From positions 1-64,000 of the forward strand of contig CAMMIW010000004.1 in the NCBI GenBank assembly GCA_946497035.1: a stretch of DNA of 64,000 bases, read 5' to 3'. The notes below the pieces were generated by a model that was given only the letters and a program-made list of their open reading frames with translations, was not told the origin of the DNA and searched no databases. Position 1 is the stretch's first letter. Every line of letters begins with the position of its first letter. Shown here in pieces: positions 23,809 to 24,850 of the stretch. This DNA is from an uncultured Eubacteriaceae bacterium. Lineage in GTDB: Bacteria > Bacillota > Clostridia > Lachnospirales > CAG-274. Position numbers and translations under genes: made by a program.

Positions 23809-23938
23809 AACCTACTTTAGTATTTAATATAATTTTTATATACATATAAAAATATAGGTTTTTAAAATTATTGTGGATTATTAATAAGATTATCCCAATA
23901 TTTATTATATAACCTAAAATATAAATACTAAGGTAGGT
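23809..23938 (+). promoter_or_regulatory. Structured leader that can bury the spoIVFA ribosome site
   Basis: A 17-bp closing stem (23810-23826 with 23922-23938, one wobble) includes AGGTAGGT of the downstream Shine-Dalgarno. Inside lie TAGGTT (23855-23860) with AACCTA (23911-23916) and a hairpin formed by TTTTTATA and TATAAAAA around 23833-23852. The layout suggests a regulated RNA fold or an inverted-repeat element. Confidence 0.55.
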
Positions 23939-23945
23939 GATTTTT

Positions 23946-24404
23946 TTGGTAAATGATAAAAAAGAATTTTATAGAAGGTTAGCAGAAGATTCTTTAAAAA
24001 ATATTAAAACCAAAAGAACAATAAAAACAACAAGAACAACAGGAACAACAAAAACATTAAGAGTAAATAACAATAACTATAAAACAAGAAATGGAATGAT
24101 AAAGCTTGAAAATAATGAAAATACACAGGTAAAATCAAAATTTTTTATACAATGTATAATAAGCCTTTTAATAGTAGGTATATTTTATTATTTATCAAAC
24201 AGTAATTCTACTATGGCTAATAATATAATTGATAAAACTAAATCTATTATAAATATGGAGCTTAATTTTGATAATAAGCTAGGAGATTTATTTTCAAAGT
24301 TTAACATTAAATCTAACAATAATATAAAAAGAGATAATGTTTCTATAGATGAAAATATTATAGAGCAAATGGAAGAAGAAATAGCAAATGCACCAAAAAA
24401 ATAG
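23946..24404 (+). CDS. spoIVFA: SpoIVFA-like protein, N-terminal half (zero frame)
   Basis: 152 residues: a basic, Thr/Lys/Arg-rich cytoplasmic part (residues 20-40 low complexity), one membrane helix (about 66-83) and an outer linker ending NAPKK-stop. SpoIVFA holds the membrane protease SpoIVFB at the forespore membrane. Here its extracellular LytM domain is encoded next door in the -1 frame. The start is TTG 23946 with GGTAGGTGA upstream; GTG 23937 lies inside the ribosome site. The stop is placed directly behind an A7 tract (24395-24401). It reads as a split gene, rejoined by frameshifting or broken by an indel. Confidence 0.78.
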   Translation: MVNDKKEFYRRLAEDSLKNIKTKRTIKTTRTTGTTKTLRVNNNNYKTRNGMIKLENNENTQVKSKFFIQCIISLLIVGIFYYLSNSNSTMANNIIDKTKSIINMELNFDNKLGDLFSKFNIKSNNNIKRDNVSIDENIIEQMEEEIANAPKK

Positions 24405-24438
24405 ATAGCCTCAAGATGCCAAATGTTGCTCTTGGGGC
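24395..24438 (+). promoter_or_regulatory. Candidate programmed -1 ribosomal frameshift signal
   Basis: In the spoIVFA frame the codons read CCA AAA AAA TAG, giving the canonical slippery heptamer A_AAA_AAA at 24395-24401 followed by the stop. A 6-nt spacer (24402-24407) precedes a 9-bp stem (24408-24416 with 24430-24438, one G-U pair). A -1 shift enters the M23 frame. An eight-A tract would also restore the frame, so a sequencing or genuine indel is the alternative. Confidence 0.65.
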
Positions 24439-24850
24439 AGAAAATAACTGGATAAACCCTGTTGATGGTATTATAACAGGATATTTTGGAGAAAGAGAAA
24501 ACCCTATATTAAAAAAACAAGAGTTTCATAATGGTTTAGATATAGGGGCAGATGAAAATAGCCCTGTATATGCGGTAAAATCTGGCATAGTAACAGATGT
24601 AGGAAGCTCTAATACATATGGTATATATATAAAATATAAAACTTATGATAACTATGAAATAATGTATGCACATCTTAATGAAGCATTAGTTGAAAAAGAT
24701 GATAAAATAAATATTAATGAAAAAATAGGGTTAGTAGGTAATACAGGGCTTTCTACAGGCTTTCATTTACATTATACAATATTAAAAAATGGAGAATATG
24801 TAGATCCTATAAATTTTGTTGCATTGCCTAAAGCTAGCTATTTAAAATAG
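24416..24850 (+). CDS. spoIVFA: SpoIVFA-like protein, M23/LytM domain half (-1 frame)
   Basis: 144 residues from ATG 24416, which has no ribosome site. Read from the shift at 24401 it gives a joined product of about 301 residues. The M23 set is complete: HNGLD (His38, Asp42), YAHL (His86) and HLHY (His117, His119), within INPVDGIITGYFG...VGNTGLSTG. This is unlike many SpoIVFA/SpoIIQ-type domains that lose zinc ligands. SpoIVFB follows 8 nt later, matching the spoIVFA-spoIVFB order. It could instead be an independent small M23 protein, but start context argues against that. Confidence 0.8.
   Translation: MPNVALGAENNWINPVDGIITGYFGERENPILKKQEFHNGLDIGADENSPVYAVKSGIVTDVGSSNTYGIYIKYKTYDNYEIMYAHLNEALVEKDDKININEKIGLVGNTGLSTGFHLHYTILKNGEYVDPINFVALPKASYLK

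Follow-up and report, generated by a model that had tools for sequence, protein, structure and literature searches.

A conserved frame break in a SpoIVFA-like LytM gene of a clostridial order is very probably bridged by programmed ribosomal frameshifting

The locus immediately upstream of a spoIVFB-like gene in this uncultured clostridial bacterium provoked a question: how is a SpoIVFA-like protein made when its membrane half and its LytM/M23 half lie in different reading frames? A first-pass annotation had proposed a programmed -1 frameshift. We judge it highly probable, from the comparisons of sequence described below, that a conserved programmed ribosomal frameshift yields both a full-length SpoIVFA-like LytM protein and a truncated membrane form. 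The window analyzed (64,000 nt) belongs to contig 4 of a 2.01-Mb draft genome in 35 contigs. Its relevant features are these:

23946..24404, + strand: 0-frame ORF, the termination product; 152 aa from TTG 23946, ending APKK-stop
24141..24194, + strand: hydrophobic (transmembrane) segment FFIQCIISLLIVGIFYYL; hydropathy maximum 2.32
24395..24401, + strand: slippery heptamer A_AAA_AAA in the 0-frame register; invariant in 8/8 species of the genus
24402..24404, + strand: 0-frame stop TAG, abutting the heptamer; invariant in the genus
24408..24416, + strand: putative stimulatory stem, 5' arm GCCTCAAGA, after a 6-nt spacer from the heptamer
24430..24438, + strand: putative stimulatory stem, 3' arm TCTTGGGGC, pairing with 24408..24416
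24401..24850, + strand: -1 frame half, LytM/M23 metallopeptidase; 149 aa
24859..25692, + strand: spoIVFB-like M50 intramembrane protease; PF02163, E=3.3e-13

The best start of the N half is TTG 23946, preceded by the SD-like sequence AAGGTAGGTG at 23930-23939. Its predicted layout runs from a cytoplasmic N terminus through a single transmembrane (TM) segment to a juxtamembrane linker, and it matched no family in Pfam or NCBIfam. The -1 half matches PF01551 (Peptidase_M23) at 24524-24808 (E=4.7e-27). Around the shift site the sequence reads GCA CCA AAA AAA TAG ATA GCC TCA AGA TG; the stem that follows has 9 bp, including one U-G pair, and its RNA fold reaches -16.3 kcal/mol (z of -2.98 versus dinucleotide shuffles). 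The predicted fusion would comprise 152 + 149 = 301 aa, with the junction APKK-IDSLK. The annotation had placed the A7 tract, the TAG, the 9-bp stem after 6 nt and the M23 half at -1, all of which proved exact to the base, and its lengths for the 301-aa fusion and the 152-aa membrane form match the recomputed ORFs. The M50 ORF starts 8 nt beyond the M23 stop; 3' of it lie a TIGR03960/TIGR03936 pair and then an RNase E/G gene.

We call the protein SpoIVFA-like on the strength of its position beside spoIVFB and its architecture: the gene is directly upstream of spoIVFB and encodes a TM segment plus a LytM/M23 domain. Genes at the spoIVFA position in clostridia have been called non-orthologous replacements (PMC3533761). 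Sigma-K and SpoIVB are both encoded in this genome with scores over the cut-off, and a BofA-like gene scores below its family cut-off. The sigK matches of genomes G008, G017 and G049 fall in two pieces on different contigs, and that of G003 contains a stop; these broken matches are perhaps skin-like elements or assembly breaks.

How might one gene give two products? Ribosomes reading CCA AAA AAA TAG would step back one base at A_AAA_AAA, with the A-site stop codon and the hairpin 6 nt downstream aiding the slip. Those that shift would continue into the M23 domain and complete a protein of ~301 aa; those that do not would terminate at TAG and release a 152-aa membrane protein that has the TM segment and linker and no LytM domain. 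Related lineages would arrive at the same two products from other sites, including a +1 slip at CCC_TAG. In this genome, we infer that the slip is mainly ribosomal. Sequence features by which -1 frameshift genes are recognized are present here, namely overlapping ORFs that together encode one homologous protein, an in-register heptamer, a downstream structure at 5-9 nt and a conserved offset.

The annotation had suggested aligning relatives to learn whether the A7 tract, stop and stem are kept while the frames stay offset. They are: the whole A7-TAG-stem unit occurs with offset frames in 8/8 species of the genus, and the heptamer abuts the stop in every one. One of these sister species (G005), assembled as a single 2.04 Mb contig, carries both the unit and the offset. 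An eighth A, which the annotation had named as evidence against a frameshift, was sought across the genus; no species has eight. Nor did the genus yield the annotation's other counter-evidence, relatives with a single unbroken frame that lack the heptamer and stem. Every cell of the stem alignment is paired (100%, 8 species), two pairs being altered on both sides, and the covariation score was reached by 9/500 shuffles. These pair-preserving changes, together with a split that extends far beyond the genus, support the frameshift reading.

The M23 half itself keeps an intact active site. As the annotation had stated, its metal and catalytic residues are retained: H43, D47, H91, H122 and H124, which form the HxxxD and HxH zinc/catalytic motifs, are invariant in an alignment of 21 relatives. 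Within the genus, the median dN/dS is 0.23 for the -1 (M23) half vs. 0.54 for the N half, and by this measure the M23 half is under purifying selection. Among solved structures, M23 endopeptidases come closest to it, and SpoIIQ is more distant.

To survey the split more widely, we built an M23 alignment, searched 294 genomes of the order with it, fetched the loci and scored the frames of the TM half and the M23 half against each other. Four genomes (G213, G218, G146 and G194) were left out of the order count as unrelated M23 proteins, and genus g9 was classed by hand, as its upstream permease frame scores like a membrane half. The halves lie in different frames in 82 of the 92 scorable genomes, 59 at -1 and 23 at +1. 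The remaining 10 have a one-frame gene (L145, L146, L019, L021, L022, L026 of genus g9, L170, L173, L183 and L186); these look like reversions to a single frame, and their existence indicates that the split is not indispensable. The neighboring spoIVFB is one intact ORF in 49/49 loci where it was detected, one of them running past the fetched stretch. In family f6, the largest sampled in the order, M23 matches are all long and generic, and those f6 genomes named in the SpoIVFB search gave no SpoIVFB match at the cut-off used, which suggests that the family lost the module. In other orders of the class, a search anchored on SpoIVFB found 48 continuous genes, none split and one unclear. At a further 18 loci outside the order, the stretch examined held no M23 gene upstream of SpoIVFB; these M23-less loci include L202, L217, L222, L240, L241, L251 and L253. 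Against named genomes, the M23 alignment returned generic M23 proteins only, mostly from other phyla.

What signals accompany the break in the -1 lineages? A_AAA_AAN (AAA, AAG, AAC or AAT) lies in the overlap of 31/59 -1 genomes and in all members of 13/27 genera; the chance of an in-frame occurrence is ~0.09 per stretch of equal length taken upstream in the same genes and the same frame. The heptamer frequently abuts the stop. Other -1 sites are G_GGA_AAG or the tetramers G_GGG/G_GGA (G_GGN), the tetramers being so frequent by chance that they carry little weight alone, and no convincing heptamer was found in f17g91, f5g61 and, in part, f17g57 and f5. Downstream structure tells the two classes apart: the average of genus-mean z is -1.69 for the -1 genera and +0.35 for the +1 genera, against -0.29 for control windows. 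The genus mean falls below -2 in 11/27 -1 genera, and by this simple z test exceptional structure is absent from the other 16. In genus g5 a stem of 12 bp covaries, and 0/500 shuffles reached its score. In five genomes of family f5, A AAC CCN coincides with a hairpin whose energy is -23 to -30 kcal/mol, making this sequence a candidate -1 site; G092, G115 and G073 do not fit it. Some 15-20 codons of f5 also appear conserved in both frames (PQIPGP..PGLWE-stop; SSGTVGIAE) at loci L171, L178, L179, L185, L188, L189 and L192; this stretch, which in five of them forms the hairpin just described, looks like dual coding plus structure. Genus g7 (L174, L175, L177, L181 and L194) has nine consecutive A (CAA AAA AAA AC) and lacks structure downstream; in this genus the slip could be transcriptional instead of ribosomal.

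The +1 lineages are more uniform. In all 23 of their genomes, which span five genera, the first frame ends CCC TAG; there is no downstream hairpin, and GGAG or AGGA occurs a few bases upstream of CCC TAG in many. Genus g9, which is continuous, and its +1 sister genus g6 make a natural comparison pair. The g9 protein (..LE-TPNELW..) and the +1 product predicted for g6 (..LE-SPSEAW..) align residue by residue if one T past CCC is skipped.

Which arrangement came first? By hhalign (prob 98, E=1.5e-13), the N halves of split genes share homology with the N-terminal part of the continuous proteins found in other orders. Because the genes outside the order are continuous and share this N-terminal homology, the fusion is the ancestral type of protein and the split is derived. 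On an M23-domain tree rooted on other orders, every outgroup is continuous, the +1 state occupies two separate clades and 9 or more switches of frame state are required, a count that is rough given the tree's few columns and many unresolved forks.

Several explanations other than ribosomal frameshifting could account for offset frames. An error of sequencing or assembly, or a pseudogene left by a recent inactivating indel, might be suspected in a 35-contig draft, homopolymers being prone to errors. We reject this explanation, whose probability we consider negligible: the split recurs in 82 species, 7 of them represented by single-contig genomes, beside a spoIVFB that is intact wherever detected. 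In addition, the M23 frame is open, with invariant catalytic residues and the low dN/dS given above, and the +1 cases lie outside A homopolymers. Alternatively, the halves could be two separate genes, the M23 half being translated alone by reinitiation at the stop; ATG 24416 is available 12 nt past TAG, and some +1 lineages have a start codon with a nearby SD-like sequence. Nevertheless, 39/82 split genomes (and 6/7 sister species of the genus) have no M23-frame start codon before the domain, and an SD-like sequence at the M23-half start occurs in only 10/82, being absent in 72/82. At ATG 24416 there is likewise none, as the annotation had reported. A soluble M23 domain having neither TM segment nor signal would remain cytoplasmic, genes outside the order are as a rule continuous, and the conserved slip signals and stems would serve nothing. 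An independent M23 gene was thus rejected as very improbable.

The third alternative places the slip in transcription: RNA polymerase would add or drop an A in the tract, and the fusion would be translated from edited mRNAs. The A7 tract here invites this explanation, as do the nine A and missing downstream structure of genus g7; indeed, dnaX of Thermus slips on nine A (PMC3711429). However, seven A make a short tract for polymerase slippage, and slippage on long A tracts cannot explain the A_AAA_AAC/AAG, G_GGA_AAG and CCC_TAG sites of many lineages. The hairpins at ribosome-relevant spacing and the covarying stems also speak against it, and we regard a transcriptional origin as unlikely. The outcome of the two kinds of slippage is identical.

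Given ribosomal frameshifting as the preferred reading, what purpose might it serve? By analogy with B. subtilis, the likeliest role is to hold the full-length and LytM-less proteins of the SpoIVFB-BofA complex in a fixed ratio. The short form resembles the product of SpoIVB/CtpB cleavage in B. subtilis and might constitute a ready-made LytM-less form; translation would then set the share of the complex that bears a cleavable, peptidoglycan-facing domain. That such a ratio could tune SpoIVFB and hence pro-sigma-K processing, as the annotation proposed, we infer rather than observe. A different purpose, which we hold to be possible if somewhat doubtful, is chiefly to keep down the amount of an active peptidoglycan hydrolase; the short product would then be a non-functional by-product and control of pro-sigma-K uninvolved. 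The M23 active site is intact, unlike those of the Bacillus SpoIVFA and SpoIIQ LytM domains, which are thought inactive (PMC3533761); yet the N half shares homology with the TM/linker region of the continuous proteins, and in B. subtilis it is this part that touches BofA and SpoIVFB (PMC12632252). How clostridia control their SpoIVFB is an acknowledged question to which the split gene is relevant, SpoIVFA having been recognized in two clostridial spore-formers only (PMC12632252).

It is conceivable that the frameshift itself, and not its mechanism, has been selected. An ancestor of the order would have recoded a continuous gene, and its descendants would have kept the split yet repeatedly exchanged one signal for another, among them the -1 heptamer with its hairpin, -1 G tetramers and +1 CCC_UAG, as a late sporulation checkpoint needs the ribosome to set the proportions of LytM-bearing and LytM-less protein. 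We consider the arguments for and against this proposal evenly balanced. If selection does act on the split, a translational switch would precede pro-sigma-K processing in a large clostridial group. Moreover, a frame break that is kept while slip site, stimulator and direction change is a natural experiment on the evolution of recoding signals.

To our knowledge, it is rare for a chromosomal bacterial gene that is not part of a mobile element to depend on frameshifting in a manner conserved across an order; the usual examples are dnaX and prfB. The open-access literature, a scope outside which most subscription journals and preprints fall, yielded no earlier report of a programmed frameshift in a SpoIVFA/M23 gene, in agreement with the annotation's statement that none was described for spoIVFA. 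A two-frame gene would be annotated as two fragments or as a pseudogene, which may partly explain the oversight in this order. The one relevant paper in that literature to connect SpoIVFA with frameshifts treats those in sporulation genes as genome errors (PMC3533761), and the main text of a genome-wide frameshift survey mentions neither sporulation nor M23 (PMC3711429). That survey gives 10% frameshifting for an A_AAA_AAA cassette in E. coli (PMC3711429), and CCC_UGA is a known +1 site (PMC5009743).

How, then, does this system compare with known ones? With dnaX (in E. coli, and in Thermus by transcriptional slippage) it shares a heptamer of the A_AAA_AAG/A type, a downstream hairpin, a long and a short product from one gene and a mechanism that varies between lineages. 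In dnaX, however, the frameshift product is the short one, whereas here the frameshift would add a C-terminal catalytic domain; the direction also switches here, from -1 to +1, and the gene encodes a sporulation membrane protein. The +1 lineages recall prfB (release factor 2), in which a P-site codon before a stop slips +1, and many of them have an SD-like sequence just upstream (AGAGGA...CCC_TAG). They differ from it in having CCC_UAG instead of CUU_UGA as the site and a stop recognized by RF1 instead of RF2, and no autoregulatory logic is apparent. At the CCC_UGA sites of Listeria phage genes and E. coli pheL, peptidyl-tRNA-Pro likewise slips +1 at CCC beside a stop; here, in contrast, the stop is always UAG, and the site is chromosomal and conserved in two separate clades. 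Finally, Bacillus subtilis SpoIVFA also adjoins spoIVFB and has a cytoplasmic N terminus, one TM segment and a LytM/M23 domain in the intermembrane space, but its gene is continuous, its active site is degenerate and the clostridial protein has been called non-orthologous to it (PMC3533761).
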